Source: Bradyrhizobium genosp. L
GTDB lineage: Bacteria > Pseudomonadota > Alphaproteobacteria > Rhizobiales > Xanthobacteraceae
Reading direction: 5' to 3'
DNA: 64,000 nt
Assembly (NCBI RefSeq): GCF_015624485.1
Contig: NZ_CP061378.1
Span: 6,721,501 to 6,785,500 of the forward strand
Within the stretch, counting starts at the first letter, position 1, and every line of letters starts with the position of its first letter. Below are positions 3,091-29,362 of this stretch, one piece after another. A program made the translations under genes and the position numbers. The notes below the pieces were generated by a model, which was not told the origin of the DNA, did no database searches, and worked only from the letters and a program-made list of their open reading frames with translations.

Positions 3091-3195
3091 TCTCCCGAGA
3101 TCCCTTTGCCGTGTGTCGGGTTCCATACTACCGGCTGGCCCCGAGCCCGCCAAGGATTCCAGAGCGCAAAGCGGACCTCCGGCCCTTCACTTTTT

Positions 3196-3221
3196 GGAAC
3201 GGCGCTCGCGCCGATGACGTT
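3196..3221 (+). promoter_or_regulatory. EcfG (general stress) promoter, perfect match
   Basis: GGAAC at 3196-3200 and CGTT at 3218-3221 are separated by 17 bases. This matches the GGAAC-N16/17-CGTT consensus of alphaproteobacterial EcfG promoters. It lies about 30 bases before the small gene starting at 3252, and ecfG itself is in this window. Confidence 0.72.
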
Positions 3222-3251
3222 GACCGGGTGAAAGCGCAAACGGAGCATGCG

Positions 3252-3506
3252 ATGGGCAAGCCCAGCGATATCCATGACGGCACCGAGCCGCCTGCCAGCC
3301 GGAACGGCGTCAATGATCCCGTCGACGGGGTCGACGTGAAGCGGACCTTCAACGACAACCGGACCCCGCACGAACGCGCGCAATGGGCTGCCGACGTGCG
3401 CGCCGCGCCCTCGCCCAAACGCGGCGAGCCGTTCCTGCCCGAGGCGCTGCGGCGGCGTCCAACCGAGCCACTGAACCCGCGCACGGGGCGGCATCGGAGC
3501 GACTAA
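3252..3506 (+). CDS. Small hydrophilic protein of unknown function, likely stress-induced
   Basis: The gene encodes 84 residues starting at an ATG preceded by GGAG. The product is strongly hydrophilic, rich in Pro, Arg and Asp, and has no hydrophobic core or Cys; it may be largely disordered (NGVNDPVDGVDVKRTFNDN...). I know no domain in it. Its regulation is the informative part: a perfect EcfG-type promoter ends 30 bases upstream, so it is probably a member of the general stress regulon. A stem-loop terminator follows at 3581-3610. A longer reading from 3111 is possible but would start upstream of that promoter. Confidence 0.65.
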   Translation: MGKPSDIHDGTEPPASRNGVNDPVDGVDVKRTFNDNRTPHERAQWAADVRAAPSPKRGEPFLPEALRRRPTEPLNPRTGRHRSD

Positions 3507-3580
3507 GCGGCGCGCCAGCCTCTCCAGCTACGCCGCGAACGCGCGCACCCGCATGAGCCCGCTGAACAGCCCAAGGATCG

Positions 3581-3610
3581 AGAGCCGGCGATGGTTTCAT
3601 CGCCGGCTCT
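3581..3610 (+). terminator. Stem-loop terminator after the 3252 gene
   Basis: A perfect 13-bp inverted repeat (3581-3593 with 3598-3610) surrounds a GTTT loop and is followed by a weakly T-rich stretch. It lies 75 bases past the stop of the small plus-strand gene. Confidence 0.6.
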
Positions 3611-3676
3611 TCTCGCTGTTGAGCGCAAGGTGATTTCTATCTGCCGCGGCTATTGATCTCGCCCAAGGAAGTGACC

Positions 3677-3859
3677 CTAGGCCTCTCGCGACAGCATCGC
3701 GTTCAGCTCGGCTGCGGTGCGCAATTGCTCGATTCGTGCGGCGATCGAATCGCGTTGCGTTCCGGACGGCAGCCGCGCGAGCTGGATCTCGAGCTTCAAT
3801 TTGTGCTCTTCGAGGCGCTGCTCGAAAGTATGGGGCTCAGATCGTTTGCGCTTCTGCAT
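3677..3859 (-). CDS. Small charged helical protein, unknown function
   Basis: Sixty residues, starting MQKRKRSEPH, nearly all predicted helical, with alternating charged and Leu/Ile positions (FEQRLEEHKLKLEIQLARL ... RIEQLRTAAELNAML). This suggests a coiled-coil or helical hairpin that could bind a partner. No known domain is recognised. Its start lies inside the end of the upstream gene (3837-4001), a 23-base overlap, so the two are very probably translated as a pair. An AAGGTGGA ribosome-binding sequence precedes the ATG. Confidence 0.6.
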   Translation of the reverse strand: MQKRKRSEPHTFEQRLEEHKLKLEIQLARLPSGTQRDSIAARIEQLRTAAELNAMLSREA

Positions 3860-4001
3860 CGTCCACCTTTGGCGGTTGCAGACCGGGACTGTTGGCCCAG
3901 CGGTCCAGTTGTTCGATTACCTGCGCGTGGCTCGGCCGTCGCGGCTTCGGCGCGGCAGGTTCCTCGGATAATTTGCGGGGCAGCTTGACCTGATCAGTCA
4001 T
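3837..4001 (-). CDS. 54-aa protein of unknown function
   Basis: Reading the minus strand from the ATG ending at 4001 gives a 54-aa protein (MTDQVKLPRKLSEEP...), with a basic, Pro-rich first half and an amphipathic segment HAQVIEQLDRWANSPGL. A GGGAGA ribosome-binding sequence lies six bases upstream of the ATG. The stop lies inside the next gene, so the pair appears translationally coupled. No family is recognised. It reads away from the stress-promoted gene at 4181 across an AT-rich spacer. Confidence 0.6.
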   Translation of the reverse strand: MTDQVKLPRKLSEEPAAPKPRRPSHAQVIEQLDRWANSPGLQPPKVDDAEAQTI

Positions 4002-4116
4002 GGCGTCTCCCTTCGGAATAGAAAGACGCTGGCCGTCGAATCGTTCCCCGTACCTATACTAAATTATTGATTTCATTACACAATTCTACTCATTTGGGGT
4101 TTTTTGCAGAGCTTAT

Positions 4117-4141
4117 GGAACCCAATGAAAGTTGGCTCGTT
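4117..4141 (+). promoter_or_regulatory. EcfG (general stress) promoter, perfect match
   Basis: GGAAC at 4117-4121 and CGTT at 4138-4141 are 16 bases apart, a perfect EcfG-type promoter. The ATG of the ribbon-helix-helix gene lies 39 bases downstream. The surrounding 4020-4175 stretch is much richer in A and T than the rest of the region. Confidence 0.75.
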
Positions 4142-4180
4142 TAGCAAACTACTCAAACAACTCATTCTGGGTGATTGGAG

Positions 4181-4417
4181 ATGAATGAGATTCGCGCCGA
4201 GCGGCTTCAAGTCATGCTATCTCCTGAGGAATTGGCGGCGGTCGACGACTTCCGGTTCAAGCACCGGATGCCGACCCGTGCCGCCGCGGTCCGCGAGCTG
4301 CTGAAGCTCGGCCTCGCCGGCGCCGGGATCGACGCACGGGCGGGTGTGAAATCCAGCGATTTTGGGGTGTTCAATCGAGGCCCGGATGGGCACACGCAGA
4401 CCGACGAGCCCTCCTGA
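4181..4417 (+). CDS. Ribbon-helix-helix (CopG-like) protein
   Basis: The 78-aa product begins with a segment (RAERLQVMLSPEELAAVDDFRFKHRMPTR then AAAVRELLKLGL) that fits a ribbon-helix-helix DNA-binding fold: a beta strand, helix A, a turn with PTR, and helix B ending in LLKLGL. The last 25 residues are polar and probably disordered. I chose the ATG at 4181; a TTG two codons earlier is also in frame. Small RHH proteins are often transcription regulators or antitoxins, but no toxin gene is adjacent. The perfect EcfG promoter just upstream suggests stress-dependent expression. Confidence 0.75.
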   Translation: MNEIRAERLQVMLSPEELAAVDDFRFKHRMPTRAAAVRELLKLGLAGAGIDARAGVKSSDFGVFNRGPDGHTQTDEPS

Positions 4418-4468
4418 CGCGCCCAAGCGGGGCCGACAAGGAGACTGACGGCGCGGCCGCGCGGCGGT

Positions 4469-4609
4469 TCACGCCGCAGCGAAGAGATCCACGATTCCCT
4501 TCAGGACGCAGACCACCAGCGCCGACGAGAACATCGCCGTGCCGAGATCGGCGAGATAGAGCAACTGCGCCCTCTGCTCCGCATCGAGCGCTGCGATCGC
4601 CTTGCGCAT
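4469..4609 (-). CDS. 46-aa single-span membrane protein, likely stress-induced
   Basis: Starting at the ATG ending at 4609, with GGAG upstream, this gives 46 residues: a short amphipathic N-terminus (MRKAIAALDAEQRAQLLYL) and one hydrophobic segment (LGTAMFSSALVVCVLKGIVDLFAAA). It resembles small single-pass inner-membrane proteins; no family is recognised. A perfect EcfG-type promoter on the same strand ends 27 bases before the ATG, which makes this tiny gene much more credible than its length alone would. Confidence 0.6.
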   Translation of the reverse strand: MRKAIAALDAEQRAQLLYLADLGTAMFSSALVVCVLKGIVDLFAAA

Positions 4610-4635
4610 GGCCGGACTCCATTTTCCGTCGGATG

Positions 4636-4660
4636 AACGCCGGCGGAGAGCGTCCGTTCC
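4636..4660 (-). promoter_or_regulatory. EcfG (general stress) promoter, minus strand
   Basis: On the minus strand GGAAC (4660-4656) is followed after 16 bases by CGTT (4639-4636). This is a perfect match to the EcfG consensus and lies 27 bases before the ATG of the 46-aa membrane protein gene. Confidence 0.72.
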
Positions 4661-5713: not shown

Positions 5714-6526
5714 CTATGCCGACGCCGCGCGCGGCGCGTTGCGGTTGCGCGAGTTGCGCTGGAAGAACAGCGCCTGGCTCGCGACCGCCGACACCATCGC
5801 CGGCTGGAACGGCTTGGAGATCAGGAATGCCGGCTCCGGCCGCTCGCCGGTCAGGAAGCGTTCCGGATAGGCGGTGATGAACACCACCGGTACCTCGAAG
5901 GTGCGCAGCAGCTCGTTCACCGCATCGAGGCCCGACGAACCGTCGGCGAGCTGGATGTCGGCGAGGATCAGGCCGGGCTTCTTGTTCTTGGCGAGCGCCA
6001 CCGCATCGGAATGGGTGCGCGCGACGCCGATGACATTATGCCCGAGATTCTTCACCAGGCTCTCGAGGTCCATGGCGATGAAGGTCTCGTCCTCGATGAT
6101 CAGGACATCGGTGGCGATCTCGGCGGCCATCTCGCGGCCCGCGGTGTCGGTGAGTTTGCGGGTCTCGGCGATGTCGGTGTTGAGGATATAGGCCACCTCC
6201 TCCTCCGAGAAGCCCTCGAGCGAGAGCAGCAGGAAGGCCTGGCGGGCCAACGGCGTGATGTTGGAGAGCCGGCGTTCCGGCGGCAGCGACAGCGTCGCCA
6301 CGTCGGCATTGTCATTGTTCACCGCGACCGAATTCCAGATCTGGGTGAACAGCCGGAACAACCCGGCGCGCGGGCCGTGGGCCTGATCCAGCAGCGATCC
6401 ATCCTGCAGCAGGGCCTCGAGCATGGCCCCGACATAGGCGTCGCCCGACGCCTGGTTTCCGGTCAGCGCGCGGGCATAGCGGCGCAACAGCGGAAGATGT
6501 TCAGCAACGACCTGCGATCGGGACAT
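5714..6526 (-). CDS. phyR: PhyR, general stress response regulator / anti-anti-sigma factor
   Basis: 270 aa. Residues 1-130 form a sigma-factor-like domain (sigma2-like then sigma4-like, including TPLARQAFLLLSLEGFSEEEVAYIL). Residues 139-255 form a receiver domain with acidic pocket E145-D146-E147, phospho-acceptor Asp190 (LILADIQL), Thr218 and Lys238. In the known scheme, phosphorylated PhyR exposes its sigma-like domain and sequesters NepR, freeing EcfG. The start at 6526 has GGAG upstream; an upstream in-frame extension lacks support. It is divergent from nepR-ecfG, the standard arrangement, and a strong terminator follows. No dedicated PhyR kinase is adjacent. Confidence 0.96.
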   Translation of the reverse strand: MSRSQVVAEHLPLLRRYARALTGNQASGDAYVGAMLEALLQDGSLLDQAHGPRAGLFRLFTQIWNSVAVNNDNADVATLSLPPERRLSNITPLARQAFLLLSLEGFSEEEVAYILNTDIAETRKLTDTAGREMAAEIATDVLIIEDETFIAMDLESLVKNLGHNVIGVARTHSDAVALAKNKKPGLILADIQLADGSSGLDAVNELLRTFEVPVVFITAYPERFLTGERPEPAFLISKPFQPAMVSAVASQALFFQRNSRNRNAPRAASA

Positions 6527-6669: not shown

Positions 6670-6690
6670 AGAAATAGTTCCAGCAATCCG

Positions 6691-6715
6691 GAACTTTCCG
6701 CGCAACTTTGCATTA
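6691..6715 (+). promoter_or_regulatory. Candidate EcfG promoter of nepR-ecfG (one mismatch)
   Basis: GGAAC at 6691-6695 and CATT at 6712-6715 are 16 bases apart; the -10 differs from CGTT by one base. It lies 50 bases before nepR and agrees with positive autoregulation of ecfG. Confidence 0.6.
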
Positions 6716-6765: not shown

Positions 6766-7014
6766 TTGAAAATCAGAGACTTAACCTCCCGGGGAAGCGT
6801 GGATCACATCATGAAGGAAGTAAAGAAGCAGGGCGGTCTCAACGCCGAGATTCAGTCCAGAATCGGCCACCAGCTTCGCGCCATGTACGATGACGTGGTG
6901 CGGCAGGGGGTGCCCGATCGCTTTGCGGAGTTGATCCGCAAACTCGACGGACCTGAGGCTGCCGCAGCTGCTGTCGCCGGGGGCGATACCGACAAGAACA
7001 ATGGAGGGGAGTAA
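6766..7014 (+). CDS. nepR: NepR, anti-sigma factor of EcfG
   Basis: This 82-aa protein has the NepR core GGLNAEIQSRIGHQLRAMYDDVVRQGVPDRFAELIRKLD, which forms the two helices that clamp either EcfG or the sigma-like domain of PhyR. The flanking N- and C-terminal residues are low-complexity, as in other NepR proteins. Its TAA stop overlaps the ecfG ATG by one base (TAATG), so the anti-sigma and sigma factors are translationally coupled. An EcfG-like promoter lies 50 bases upstream. Confidence 0.93.
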   Translation: MKIRDLTSRGSVDHIMKEVKKQGGLNAEIQSRIGHQLRAMYDDVVRQGVPDRFAELIRKLDGPEAAAAAVAGGDTDKNNGGE

Positions 7015-7562
7015 TGCCTCTCACGAATGAACTTCGCGACGACATCCTGGCGTCGGTGCCAAGCCTGCGTGCCTTCGCGATCTCGCTATCCGGTAATGGT
7101 GACCGCGCGGACGATCTGGTGCAGGAGACCCTGCTACGCGCAATCGCCAATATCGATTCGTTCCAGCCGGGCTCCAACCTGCCGGCGTGGCTGTTCACCA
7201 TCCTGCGCAACCTGTTTCGCTCCGACTACCGCAAGCGCCGGCGCGAGGTGGAGGATGCCGAGGGCAACTACGCCAAGACGCTGAAGAGCCAGCCCTCGCA
7301 ATCGGCGCATCTGGAGTTCGAGGAATTCCGCACCGCGCTCGAGAAGCTGCCGCAAGACCAGCGCGAGGCGTTGATCCTGGTCGGCGCCTCCGGCTTCTCC
7401 TATGAGGACGCGGCGGCGATCTGCGGCTGCGCGGTCGGCACCATCAAGAGCCGCGTCAACCGTGCGCGATCGAAGCTCTCCGCGCTGCTCTATGTCGACA
7501 GCGCCGAGGATTTCGGTCCCGACAACACCGTGCGCGCCGTGATCGGCGGCAATGGCGGCTAG
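7014..7562 (+). CDS. ecfG: EcfG, general stress ECF sigma factor
   Basis: 182 aa with region 2 (DLVQETLLRAIANIDSFQPGSNLPAWLFTILRNLFRSDYRKR, residues about 34-76) and region 4 (LPQDQREALILVGASGFSYEDAAAICGCAVGTIKSRVNRARSKL, about 113-157) of an ECF15-type sigma factor. A strong GGAGGGGA ribosome-binding site lies inside the end of nepR. EcfG recognises GGAAC-N16/17-CGTT promoters, several of which occur within 4 kb. The 3' end is unusual: the stop codon lies inside a short tandem repeat. A strong terminator follows. Confidence 0.95.
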   Translation: MPLTNELRDDILASVPSLRAFAISLSGNGDRADDLVQETLLRAIANIDSFQPGSNLPAWLFTILRNLFRSDYRKRRREVEDAEGNYAKTLKSQPSQSAHLEFEEFRTALEKLPQDQREALILVGASGFSYEDAAAICGCAVGTIKSRVNRARSKLSALLYVDSAEDFGPDNTVRAVIGGNGG

Positions 7563-7667: not shown

Positions 7668-10583
7668 CTAGCTCGCCATGGATTTCTTGAAAGCCGCCGG
7701 CTTGAAGCCGTTTCTCAGCTCCAGGATCTTGCCGGCGATTTCGGTCACCGGCACCGGGTGGCTGAACAGGAAGCCCTGGGCCTCGTTGCAGCCCTCGGCC
7801 CGCATGTGATCGAGCTGCTCGACCGTCTCGATGCCTTCGGCGATCGTGGTCATGCCGAGGCTGCGGCCGAGGCTGATGACGGCGCGGACGATCGATTTCG
7901 AACCGTGCGTCGCGGTCGCATCGCGCACGAACGACTTGTCGATCTTGAGCTTGTCGAACGGAAAGCTGCGCAGATAGCTCAGCGAGGAATAGCCGGTGCC
8001 GAAATCGTCGAGGGCGATGCGCAGCCCTTGCGCCTTGAGCTTGTGCAATGTCGCCAGCGTCTCCGAGCTGTTGGCGAGGAACACCGATTCGGTGATTTCG
8101 AGCTCGAGCCGGCGCGGCGACAATTGCGACGCCGAAAGCGCCCGGGCGATGACGTCGATCAGCCCCTGGTCGTGAAATTGCGCCGCGGAGACATTGACCG
8201 CGAGCTTCATCTCGCCGGGCCACGTCACGGCCTGCTCGCAGGCACGGTTGAGCACCCATTCGCCGAGCGGGGTGATGAGCCCGATCTCCTCGGCGATCGG
8301 AATGAACTGGTCGGGCGGCACCATGCCCCGCTTCGGATGCTGCCAGCGCAGCAGGGCCTCGAAACCGCAGATGCGGTCCTGATCGAGGTCGTAGAGCGGC
8401 TGGTAGTACAGCGAGAATTCGTCCTTGCCCATCGCCTCGCGCAGATCGAGCTCCAGCGCCCGGCGCCGCTGCAGCGTGGCGTCCATCGCCGGCTCGAAGA
8501 ACCGCCAAGTCCCACGTCCCTCCATCTTGGCGCGGTACAAGGCGACGTCGGCATTCTTCAGCAGCTTCTCGCCCACCGTGCCGTCGGCCGGCGACACCGA
8601 GATGCCGACGCTGCATCCGACCACGACGCGATGCCCGTTCAATTCATACGGCGCGCCCACGCATTCCACGATGCGGCGCGCCAGGCGCTCGGAGTCCTCG
8701 GCGTTCTGCACGCCGCACTGGATCACCGCGAACTCGTCGCCGCCGAGACGCGCAACGGTGTCGACCTCGCGGACGCAGGCGTTGAGCCGCTCCGCGACCG
8801 CGCAGAGCAACTCGTCGCCCACCGGGTGCCCGAGCGTGTCGTTGACCGGCTTGAAATTGTCGAGATCGAGACAGAACACGGCAAAGCCGAAGCCGCGGCC
8901 GGCCTGTGCCACCGCCTGCTCGATGCGTTCGGCCAGCAACGTCCGGTTCGGCAGCTTGGTCAGCGCATCGTGCCGCGCCATGAACGCGATCTGCGATTCG
9001 GCGCGCTGCTGCTCGGTGACGTCCTCGCAGGTGACGAGCCAGCCGCCGTCGGAGGTGAGCCGTTGCGCGACGGAGATGATGCGCCCGTCGCTGAGACGCT
9101 CGAGATAATTGCCGCTCTGGTGCCGCGGAATCGAGCGCTCGCGCTCCGCCATCAGGTCGGTGACGGTCCGGCTGCCGTGATTGCCGGCGGCGATGCTCAG
9201 TTCGAGGACGTCTTCCAGCGTCATGCCAGGCAGGACCAGCTCCGGTGAAATGTCGAAGATCTCGCAGAACCGGCGGTTGACGACCTGCAGCCGCGCCTCG
9301 CTGTTGTAGAGGCACAGCCCCTGCGACATGTGGGTGAGCGCCGCATCGAGGCGAAGATTGGTTTCGTGCAGCTCCGCCTTCTGCTGCTTCAGCGCGGTGA
9401 TGTCGCTGTAGACCAGCACGCCGCCGCCCCCCTGCGTCTCGCTGCGGCTGACGCGCAGCCAGCGCCCGTCGGGCAGTTGCGCCTCGCTGGCGAAATCGTC
9501 GACATCGCTGTCGGCCGGCATCGTGGCGACGCCTGTGGCGTCGAGCCGGTCCGAACGCAGAAGCTGCGGGGAGAGACGGATGAACTCGCTGGCGCGCGAG
9601 TTGGCCAGCGCGATCTGGCCGTCCGCATCCAGCAGCACCACGCCCTCGCGCGAGGTCTCGAGCGCGTCCGAAAGCCTCGCCTGCGCGGAGCGGCGCTGCG
9701 ACACCTCCTGATTGACCATCCGCCTGATATTGTCCCGCATGGCTTCCATCGCGGTCAACAACTTGCCGAGCTCGTCGGTGCCACCTTTGGGGATCGTCGC
9801 GTCCAGGTCGCCCTCGGCAATGCGTTGCGCCGCCCGCGACGCGATGGCGACGGGTCCGATGATCCGGCGCGCCAGCAGCCAAGAGAACAGCGCCGACAGA
9901 AACAGCGCGGCGGTCAGCCCGGCGCCGTTGAGCTGCAGGTCGCGCCTGATGGTCGAGAGCGCTCGCTGCCGGAACAGAAAGCCGTCGCCGGCCGTGTAGT
10001 TGACGAGCAGCTCGACCTGCTGGCCGACGATCTTGGAGTAGCGGTCGACCTCGCCGACCGTGTTGGGGGGAAGCTGCCGATCCGACGCGCCGTCGGTCGC
10101 CAGCGACGCTTCGACCGCGCGGCGATGCAGCGCCATCCAGGCATCGGCGGCTTCCTGGACCTTGGCGGCGGCCTTGGCGGCGCGGGACGACTGCGACCGA
10201 TCGGCGGCGATCGTCAGATCCTCCGACAGCGCCTTGGCGAGCGCTTCGATCTGGCTGTCGAGGCTGGCACGGACCGCCGGATCCGTGCTCATCAGGCGCT
10301 GCGACGAGGCGACCCGCATCGCGGCGAAGTCGGCGCCCGCTGCACGCGCGTAGTTGATCGACATCAGCGATTCATCGAACGTCTTGGCGACGAGGTCGCC
10401 GGCGTGCCGGATGCCGACGATCGAGTAGCCCCCGAGCGCGATCGCAATGGCGCTCATCGTCACACTGAAGATCAGAATCTGGATCCGGATCGACCCCTTG
10501 GTCAGCGCTGTGCGCGACAGGCGAGCGGCGGCGAACCGAAGCGCCACGACAGTTTTCGCCTTGAGGTTGAACAGAAGACCCAT
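7668..10583 (-). CDS. Membrane-bound GGDEF-EAL cyclic-di-GMP protein
   Basis: 971 aa. Membrane spans at about 33-58 and 222-240 enclose a periplasmic helical sensor. A HAMP-like region follows (about 240-290), then two PAS-like segments (about 305-400 and 410-525), a GGDEF domain and an EAL domain. The cyclase motif GGDEF (614-618) is intact, with an inhibitory RxxD site at 605-608 and the correct five-residue gap. The phosphodiesterase motif FEALLRW (741-747) and DDFGTGYSSL (from 859) are also intact. The protein therefore has the residues to make and to degrade c-di-GMP; which activity dominates cannot be read from sequence. It converges on ecfG and is transcribed alone. Confidence 0.92.
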   Translation of the reverse strand: MGLLFNLKAKTVVALRFAAARLSRTALTKGSIRIQILIFSVTMSAIAIALGGYSIVGIRHAGDLVAKTFDESLMSINYARAAGADFAAMRVASSQRLMSTDPAVRASLDSQIEALAKALSEDLTIAADRSQSSRAAKAAAKVQEAADAWMALHRRAVEASLATDGASDRQLPPNTVGEVDRYSKIVGQQVELLVNYTAGDGFLFRQRALSTIRRDLQLNGAGLTAALFLSALFSWLLARRIIGPVAIASRAAQRIAEGDLDATIPKGGTDELGKLLTAMEAMRDNIRRMVNQEVSQRRSAQARLSDALETSREGVVLLDADGQIALANSRASEFIRLSPQLLRSDRLDATGVATMPADSDVDDFASEAQLPDGRWLRVSRSETQGGGGVLVYSDITALKQQKAELHETNLRLDAALTHMSQGLCLYNSEARLQVVNRRFCEIFDISPELVLPGMTLEDVLELSIAAGNHGSRTVTDLMAERERSIPRHQSGNYLERLSDGRIISVAQRLTSDGGWLVTCEDVTEQQRAESQIAFMARHDALTKLPNRTLLAERIEQAVAQAGRGFGFAVFCLDLDNFKPVNDTLGHPVGDELLCAVAERLNACVREVDTVARLGGDEFAVIQCGVQNAEDSERLARRIVECVGAPYELNGHRVVVGCSVGISVSPADGTVGEKLLKNADVALYRAKMEGRGTWRFFEPAMDATLQRRRALELDLREAMGKDEFSLYYQPLYDLDQDRICGFEALLRWQHPKRGMVPPDQFIPIAEEIGLITPLGEWVLNRACEQAVTWPGEMKLAVNVSAAQFHDQGLIDVIARALSASQLSPRRLELEITESVFLANSSETLATLHKLKAQGLRIALDDFGTGYSSLSYLRSFPFDKLKIDKSFVRDATATHGSKSIVRAVISLGRSLGMTTIAEGIETVEQLDHMRAEGCNEAQGFLFSHPVPVTEIAGKILELRNGFKPAAFKKSMAS

Positions 10584-28033: not shown

Positions 28034-29362
28034 TCAGGAGCCCTGGCCGCCGCACTTGTTGGTCTTGGTGTTGTAGTTGCCGCACTTCTTGCCGACCCAA
28101 TCGCCGATCAGGTCCTTGGAGCCCTCGAGCTCCTTCGACCAGGCGTCGCCGGCCACCAGGCCCGGGGTCTTCCAGACCACGTCGAACTGGCCGTTGGCCT
28201 TGATCTCGCCGATGAACACCGGCTTGGTGATGTGGTGGTTGGGCAGCATCTTCGACATGCCGCCGGTCAGGTTCGGCGCCTCGATGCCGGGGAGCGCGTC
28301 GATCACCTTGTCCGGATCGGTCGACTTCACCTTCTCGACCGCCTTCACCCACATGTTGAAGCCGATATAGTGCGCTTCCATCGGGTCGTTGGTGGTGCGC
28401 TTCGGATTCTTGGTGTAGGCCTGCCACTCCTTGATGAACTTCTCGTTCGCCGGGGTCTTGATCGACTCGAAGTAGTTCCAGGCGGCGAGATGGCCGACCA
28501 GCGGCTTGGTGTCGAGGCCGGCGAGCTCTTCTTCGCCGACCGAGAACGCGACCACCGGGATGTCGGTCGCCTTGATGCCCTGGTTACCGAGCTCCTTGTA
28601 GAACGGAACGTTGGCGTCGCCGTTGATGGTGGAGACCACGGCGGTCTTCTTGCCGGCCGAGCCGAACTTCTTGATGTCGGCCACGATCGTCTGCCAGTCG
28701 GAGTGACCGAACGGCGTGTAGTTGATCATGATGTCGTCCTGGGCGACGCCCTTGGACTTCAGATAGGCTTCCAGGATCTTGTTGGTGGTGCGCGGATAGA
28801 CGTAGTCGGTGCCGGCCAGCACCCAGCGCTTCACCTTCTCTTCCTTCATCAGATAGTCGACGGCGGGGATCGCCTGCTGGTTCGGCGCCGCACCCGTGTA
28901 GAACACGTTGCGCTCGGACTCCTCGCCCTCATACTGCACCGGATAGAACAGGATGTTGTTCAGCTCCTTGAACACCGGGAGCACGGACTTGCGCGACACC
29001 GACGTCCAGCAGCCGAACACGACCGCGACCTTGTCCTTGGTGATCAGCTCGCGCGCCTTTTCGGCGAACAGCGGCCAGTTCGAGGCGGGGTCGACCACGA
29101 CGGCCTCGAGCTTCTTGCCGAGCACGCCGCCCTTCTTGTTCTGCTCGTCGATCAGGAAAAGAATCGTGTCCTTCAGCGTGGTTTCGCTGATGGCCATGGT
29201 GCCGGACAGCGAGTGAAGGATGCCAACCTTGATGGTGTCGTCGGCCGCTTGTGCGGGCGCGAACGGCGAGGACGCAGCCAGGCCTAAAACCAGGCCGGCC
29301 GTCGCCGCGAGGGCGCGGCGGCGGGTCATCGTCGCTATTCCGTGAGTAAGTTGAGTAAGCAT
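28034..29362 (-). CDS. urtA: Urea ABC transporter substrate-binding protein UrtA
   Basis: 442 aa. The start has GGGAGA nine bases upstream. A twin-arginine-like signal is seen (TMTRRRALAATAGLVLGLAAS...AQA), so the protein is periplasmic. The mature part begins DDTIKVGILHSLSGTMAISETTLKD, diagnostic of UrtA/AmiC-like urea and amide receptors. FGCWTSVSRKSVLPVFKELNN and PVQYEGEESERNVFYTGAAPNQQ follow. It heads the urt-ure cluster and has a sigma-54 promoter 75 bases upstream. Confidence 0.95.
   Translation of the reverse strand: MLTQLTHGIATMTRRRALAATAGLVLGLAASSPFAPAQAADDTIKVGILHSLSGTMAISETTLKDTILFLIDEQNKKGGVLGKKLEAVVVDPASNWPLFAEKARELITKDKVAVVFGCWTSVSRKSVLPVFKELNNILFYPVQYEGEESERNVFYTGAAPNQQAIPAVDYLMKEEKVKRWVLAGTDYVYPRTTNKILEAYLKSKGVAQDDIMINYTPFGHSDWQTIVADIKKFGSAGKKTAVVSTINGDANVPFYKELGNQGIKATDIPVVAFSVGEEELAGLDTKPLVGHLAAWNYFESIKTPANEKFIKEWQAYTKNPKRTTNDPMEAHYIGFNMWVKAVEKVKSTDPDKVIDALPGIEAPNLTGGMSKMLPNHHITKPVFIGEIKANGQFDVVWKTPGLVAGDAWSKELEGSKDLIGDWVGKKCGNYNTKTNKCGGQGS

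Follow-up and report, generated by a model that had tools for sequence, protein, structure and literature searches.

A ribbon-helix-helix-like protein near phyR-nepR-ecfG in Bradyrhizobium, a probable self-limiting regulator under EcfG-type promoter control

The window analysed here, a 64-kb stretch of a Bradyrhizobium genome (G000, 7.40 Mb; C1:6721501-6785500), carries a group of small genes next to the general stress regulators phyR, nepR and ecfG. The central one encodes a 78-amino-acid (aa) ribbon-helix-helix-like protein, called RHH below (4181..4417, plus strand); it is ribbon-helix-helix-like by a likeness suggested by its homologues and a structural model, and is a putative autorepressor. 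Its neighbours, all defined as open reading frames, are H84 (84-aa hydrophilic protein without a family match, 3252..3506, plus), D54 (54-aa protein divergent from RHH, 3837..4001, minus), C60 (60-aa protein, 3677..3859, minus), and TM46 (46-aa protein with one hydrophobic span, convergent with RHH, 4469..4609, minus). The start of C60 overlaps the end of D54, and C60 is probably the second gene of a D54-C60 unit, as the gene arrangement suggests. The regulators, found as open reading frames with profile matches, are phyR (minus strand, stop at 5714, start taken as 6562, which is not a start codon), nepR (6811-7014, plus), and ecfG (7014-7562, plus).

Three exact EcfG-type promoter motifs precede these genes, namely GGAAC-N17-CGTT before H84 (3196..3221, plus) and GGAAC-N16-CGTT before both RHH (4117..4141, plus) and TM46 (4636..4660, minus). 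The distance from motif end to ATG is 30, 39, and 26 bases, respectively, and all three sites have the -35 element GGAAC, the spacer of 16-17 and the -10 element CGTT expected of EcfG promoters. GGAAC-N16-CGTT is given as the EcfG promoter motif in two earlier studies (PMC3892343, PMC7083833), and EcfG regulons with their promoter motif are already known (PMC3892343, PMC7083833, PMC6599016, PMC8092242). The original prediction had placed three perfect sites before small genes with exact coordinates and strands, and had seen no other perfect match in the gaps; a scan of both strands of the window for the strict motif (GGAAC-N16/17-CGTT) returns these three and no others. It missed, however, the promoter of D54/C60, a variant motif before nepR-ecfG, and a TACTCA operator, all described below.

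A strict match alone is weak evidence, because the motif is not enriched genome-wide (124 strict sites versus 152 for the reversed pattern). Shuffled windows contain 0.74 strict sites on average, and three are reached in 7 of 100 shuffles. Finding a 1,465-bp span with three sites at any place in a genome of this kind has a probability of 0.038, and finding three in one given 5-kb stretch has one of about 9e-5, both values being post hoc. As the motif is not enriched genome-wide, the case is carried by conservation.

Within the clade of the window (own row included; 200 nucleotides (nt) upstream scanned, for phyR, nepR, and ecfG in loci up to L086 only), the strict motif stands upstream of TM46 in 22 of 24 rows and upstream of RHH in 14 of 24, with the relaxed form GGAAY-N16/17-NGTT present at RHH in all 24. 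As for H84, 8 of 14 anchored rows have the strict motif, while 5 more have TGTT as the -10 element; two rows were dropped for want of an anchor, and an unanchored count of 10/16 included two partial matches with a misplaced start. Among comparison genes the strict motif is found upstream of none of the loci of nepR (27), ecfG (27), eamA2 (31), tgl (19), and M73 (20), and upstream of phyR in 1 of 27. Column conservation amounts to 58% in the flank and 71% in the spacer for TM46, and to 56% and 61% for D54 (12 anchorable rows, with 12 dropped). The corresponding values for RHH are 72% and 73%, and for H84 80% and 75%, the flank being as conserved as the spacer at both. In these alignments a motif in diverged surroundings is thus visible for TM46 and D54 and, within the clade, not for RHH and H84. 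The -35 conservation of 100% at all four promoters is largely by construction, since the rows were anchored on GGAAY. Taken together, the alignments support the view that the three sites are conserved EcfG-type promoters. That they are chance matches, as the genome-wide and shuffle counts would allow, has a next to negligible probability, given that TM46 retains the strict motif in nearly all rows with flanks only 58% conserved and that GGAAC-N16/17-NGTT stands at the RHH gene in 60 of 64 Bradyrhizobium-type regions (distinct regions whose RHH is at least 60% identical to that of the window). A conserved TTCACTTTTT tract lies at 3180-3195, directly upstream of the -35 element of the H84 promoter, and is perhaps an upstream element.

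A fourth promoter, that of D54-C60, appears in the window in decayed form (GGAAC-N17-CTTT, 4022..4047, minus), with GGAAC retained and the -10 element lost. The strict motif precedes D54 in 19 of 24 clade rows; genus-wide it does so in 3 of 30 loci, all three being clade members, and on these upstream regions the EcfG-type promoter of D54 is a clade trait, absent outside the clade. The D54 gene itself adjoins RHH in 30/30 genus-wide loci, own included. Near its end D54 carries WANSPGLQPP, which no other such frame in the window has; similar ends presumably occur in other small rhizobial proteins. Upstream of RHH the EcfG-type motif is found genus-wide in relaxed form in 29 of 30 loci and in strict form in 17 (clade members included), and outside the clade RHH alone of these genes is seen to keep it. 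A motif search upstream of the orthologues, which the original prediction proposed, accordingly finds conservation in the clade for all three genes and genus-wide for RHH alone. Before nepR-ecfG lies the variant GGAAC-N16-CATT (6690..6714, plus); the pattern GGAAC-N16/17-N(G/A)TT occurs within 260 nt upstream of nepR in 80/80 loci, a pattern chosen post hoc and counted without a shuffle control.

The suggestion that these genes form a stress island beside its own regulators does not extend beyond one clade. In a neighbour survey of the best 80 of 334 ecfG loci, nine of which hold <8 kb upstream, RHH lies within 10 kb of ecfG (1.9-9.7 kb) in 23. The protein is matched in 33/60 genomes, including 31 of the 36 of the genus, while H84 has a match in 28 and TM46 in 8 of the 60 (own genome included throughout). 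Among the 23 genomes with phyR placed, RHH is near it in 3 (G003, G004, and G010), separated from it by roughly 1 Mb or more of the same contig in 10, and on a different contig in another 10, and judging from these positions closeness to phyR characterises one clade.

Twenty regions were fetched, most of them chosen for matches to RHH and to H84 close together. Three are from the phyR-linked clade, and two (L196, L197) have no H84 near RHH. The 15 regions of other clades show an H84-RHH distance of 0.8-4.7 kb, D54 in 15 and C60 in 14, as well as genes for a TPP enzyme and a HAMP-repeat protein near RHH/H84. Scanning 230 nt upstream and leaving out loci where the gene was unrecognised (1, 6, and 13 of 15 for HAMP, TPP, and PAP2, respectively), GGAAY-N16/17-NGTT precedes the large HAMP-repeat protein (L178-L192) in 14/14 loci (11 strict; in all 14 the motif reads GGAAC-N16/17-NGTT and lies about 160 bp upstream), the TPP enzyme in 9/9 (2 strict), and a PAP2 protein in 2/2 (both strict). 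On this evidence the HAMP-repeat protein near the RHH unit in other clades is a likely EcfG target. A strict motif of its own before H84 is found in 0 of these 15 regions; in L183 H84 comes immediately after the TPP gene, and in L185, L187, and L192, where the TPP gene is unrecognised, a motif like that of the TPP enzyme stands directly before H84. In the window, a gene for a HAMP-PAS-GGDEF-EAL protein (7668-10583, minus) lies directly downstream of ecfG and is convergent with it.

The window RHH has 2,911 relatives at E 0.001 among 2,920 candidates, some of which are named 'ribbon-helix-helix protein, CopG family' by their sources. Positions invariant in an alignment of 131 sequences include R5, R8, L9, Q10, M12, L13, R25, and R29, as well as P31, R33, R38, G44, L45, S58, and G62. 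The model built from these sequences predicts helices 15-27 and 33-47 with high confidence and the tail with low confidence. Its structural matches are led by ribbon-helix-helix proteins with modest Z, other folds being listed too, and by this comparison the predicted structure appears to resemble such proteins; an earlier model (61 sequences, mean predicted local distance difference test (pLDDT) 64) gave no useful structural match. A profile search of solved structures gives three weak matches, to NikR (0.09), DP71L (0.25), and MazE9 (0.66). The metal domain of NikR is C-terminal; the best NikR chain aligns over model residues 6-49 only of the 78-aa protein, and a C-terminal nickel-binding domain of the NikR type was not found in RHH.

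Many ribbon-helix-helix proteins are antitoxins, and two of the 120 homologues listed carry the source label HigA antitoxin, which raises the possibility of a type II toxin-antitoxin pair in which RHH is the antitoxin and D54 or C60 the toxin. We consider this highly improbable, as D54 and C60 are divergent from RHH and not in one operon with it, the best D54 match beside divergent RHH homologues has E 0.037, and searches with Pfam, NCBIfam, and PADLOC gave no toxin model for any of the proteins at E up to 0.01. TM46 is convergent, and no toxin gene is found in the RHH operon. The only PADLOC match is a weak one to CARF, for TM46 (E 0.027).

The principal new feature of the RHH gene is a set of repeats in its promoter. 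The putative RHH operator TTAGCA-AAC-TACTCA-AACA-ACTCA (4141..4164, plus) overlaps the last -10 base and the expected start, and another TACTCA half-site lies further upstream in the RHH-D54 intergenic region (4087..4092, plus; seen by eye in many genus-wide rows, uncounted). In most Bradyrhizobium-type loci the -10 element likewise merges with a palindrome TKAGYA-N3-TACTCA; a further half-site often comes next, and another TACTCA lies further upstream. The half-site is present in 64/64 Bradyrhizobium-type regions (3.2 in shuffles) and the palindrome in 45 (0.01 in shuffles), and in 53 of 60 regions the -10 element holds the start of the first half-site. Conserved operator-like sites in the own promoter are what is expected of an autoregulatory repressor.

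The same half-site accompanies divergent RHH homologues, which were collected by searches at the level of the order (249 and 397 genomes) and of the class (385 genomes), plus one fetch. TACTCA is the top 6-mer in 39 such regions when all 6-mers are counted (20 versus 1.99 expected, z 12.9); of these 39, L231 and L245 are divergent copies from inside the genus, and L243 is the same region as L247. In a later set the exact half-site is found in 29 of 45 regions, or 29 of 41 after four members outside the family, none with a half-site, were dropped; 6 of these 41 belong to genomes from within the genus. The 41 regions hold 37 half-sites, compared with 8 in the other 113 kb of their loci, and the half-site consensus extends to AATGAGTAAGTGAC.

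Regarding specificity, the exact palindrome has 12 sites in 12 of 20 genomes searched, each at an RHH gene. The 28 genomes searched for the 13-mer WTGAGTAASTGAC contain 7 copies, all of them upstream of an RHH gene (control 0). The sole exact palindrome of this genome is the one at 4141-4155, and with two mismatches allowed it has 6 matches versus 7 for the control. Conservation of the RHH promoter and operator, with exact full operators at RHH promoters only, is thus shown by comparison of the genomes searched. A second RHH target was considered and rejected: the direct repeat TACTCAACTTACTCA at 29343-29357, which is the one further TACTCAANYNACTCA site of this genome, lies in coding sequence and specifies the N-terminal LTQLTH of an ABC substrate-binding protein (which we take to be urtA-like), and this peptide is kept in three other genomes with other codons. 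The 12 TACTCAANYNACTCA sites in 28 genomes comprise 5 RHH promoters, 4 instances of the LTQLTH coding site, and 3 elsewhere, each in one genome; the looser repeat is thus not exclusive to RHH. The direct repeat TACTCAACTTACTCA also stands in the RHH promoter of genome G022. A reading of the repeats as RNA elements was rejected as well, since divergent homologues show both orientations and sites either side of the promoter motif; one orientation prevails in Bradyrhizobium-type regions.

Our interpretation, to which we give a probability of roughly 70%, is that RHH is an accessory regulator in the general stress response, driven by EcfG and limiting itself by repression of its own promoter. The 'possible secondary regulator' of the original prediction therefore remains a candidate, now with a conserved putative operator. 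PhyR would free EcfG from NepR, and RNA polymerase with EcfG would then initiate at the 4117-4141 promoter. RHH, presumably as dimers, would insert a two-stranded sheet (R8, Q10, and M12, by analogy with known ribbon-helix-helix proteins) into DNA, binding the TACTCA/TGAGTA half-sites over the -10 element and start as well as the upstream half-site. Bound RHH would shut the promoter, so that the response would be capped or pulse-like, and the divergent D54-C60 unit may be controlled from the same region. The H84 and TM46 genes are separate candidate EcfG targets on account of their promoters.

Two other accounts of the repeats have to be weighed. The three sites may be ordinary EcfG-regulon promoters, RHH one more stress gene and the repeats the property of another regulator; a high share of targets without assigned function is indeed common to EcfG regulons according to PMC7083833. 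This is unlikely, since the half-sites accompany RHH homologues even where no convincing D54 stands beside them and other promoters are likely, and since exact full operators are found at RHH genes only, whereas one would expect further targets for a foreign regulator. Alternatively, RHH may activate, or the operator may mainly serve the divergent D54-C60 unit, in line with the half-site lying towards D54 and the constant presence of D54 beside RHH. We give this little credence: the start of the first half-site on the -10 element is a position expected to repress, and divergent homologues without a convincing D54 retain the half-sites.

Several results weigh against an EcfG-driven autorepressor, besides the lack of genome-wide enrichment, the equally conserved flanks at RHH and H84, and the anchoring on GGAAY noted above. 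Since the operator patterns were drawn from these very promoters, only the lack of sites elsewhere is informative. With one mismatch the palindrome has 72 matches in 20 genomes versus 64 for the control, which is chance level; the 13-mer is absent from 21 of the 28 genomes, this one included, and the first half-site of this genome is the variant TTAGCA. The window shows no enrichment of single TACTCA sites (it has 7, a number reached by 23 of 100 shuffles). The shuffle tests ignore relatedness, as only regions identical over 100 bp were removed. The exact half-site is missing in 12 of the 41 divergent members, 10 of which carry variants from an ad hoc list used without a control, and in Bradyrhizobium-type regions TACTCA outnumbers TGAGTA by 106 to 27. 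As for the protein, the window RHH has no match in Pfam or NCBIfam, and Pfam RHH_1 is matched by 7 of 12 family members with a best E of 9e-4. The model is a monomer without a strand (mean pLDDT 73, predicted template modelling score 0.52), and its best Foldseek E-value is 0.22. Finally, EcfG control is not a family trait, because no more than 7 of the 41 divergent members have an EcfG-like motif, and TTGACG also occurs in 9 of the 64 Bradyrhizobium-type regions.

The 41 divergent members differ in promoter type: 7 have GGAAC-N16/17-(C/G)GTT (6 of them strict), 11 have TTGACG (1.5 expected; one at -9, which cannot be a -35 element), none has both, and 23 have neither. From this distribution we infer that the operator is older than EcfG control. 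A broader proposal, to which we assign even odds, is a widespread unnamed alphaproteobacterial RHH family whose private operator AATGAGTAAGTGAC stays while the promoter type switches, from sigma70-like TTGACG in some lineages to EcfG in Bradyrhizobium and a few others. The outcome in Bradyrhizobium would be a transcription factor that is triggered by stress and caps its own output, connected to the general stress response along with a 54-aa partner so far known from that genus only.

In comparison with known systems, CopG and Arc are autoregulatory ribbon-helix-helix repressors, and ParD and NikR contain ribbon-helix-helix domains. RHH probably resembles these four in its predicted fold and has, like them, short repeated half-sites in its own promoter; it differs in being a stand-alone protein of 78 aa without a toxin gene or metal domain, and in its operator consensus and EcfG-type promoter. 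With the EcfG general stress regulon of alphaproteobacteria the locus shares GGAAC-N16/17-CGTT promoters before genes of unknown function, whereas here the candidate targets adjoin phyR-nepR-ecfG, a trait of one clade. To our knowledge, the feedback known from this system targets PhyR, NepR, or EcfG. NepR2 of Sphingomonas melonis is a NepR-like negative feedback regulator under EcfG control, suggested to act on PhyR (PMC6599016). RHH, for which EcfG control is predicted, would similarly limit part of the response, but would act on DNA, at its own promoter. Among the open-access papers searched, none was found that joins EcfG with ribbon-helix-helix, or EcfG with CopG and the general stress response; a 2009 study of the PhyR-EcfG regulon of B. 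japonicum may list these genes.

If the interpretation of RHH as a self-limiting regulator is true, a DNA-binding protein limits an EcfG promoter via a site that overlies the -10 element. An RHH family for which the searched libraries have no dedicated model would gain a testable operator, and D54, C60, H84, and TM46 would become candidate stress genes.
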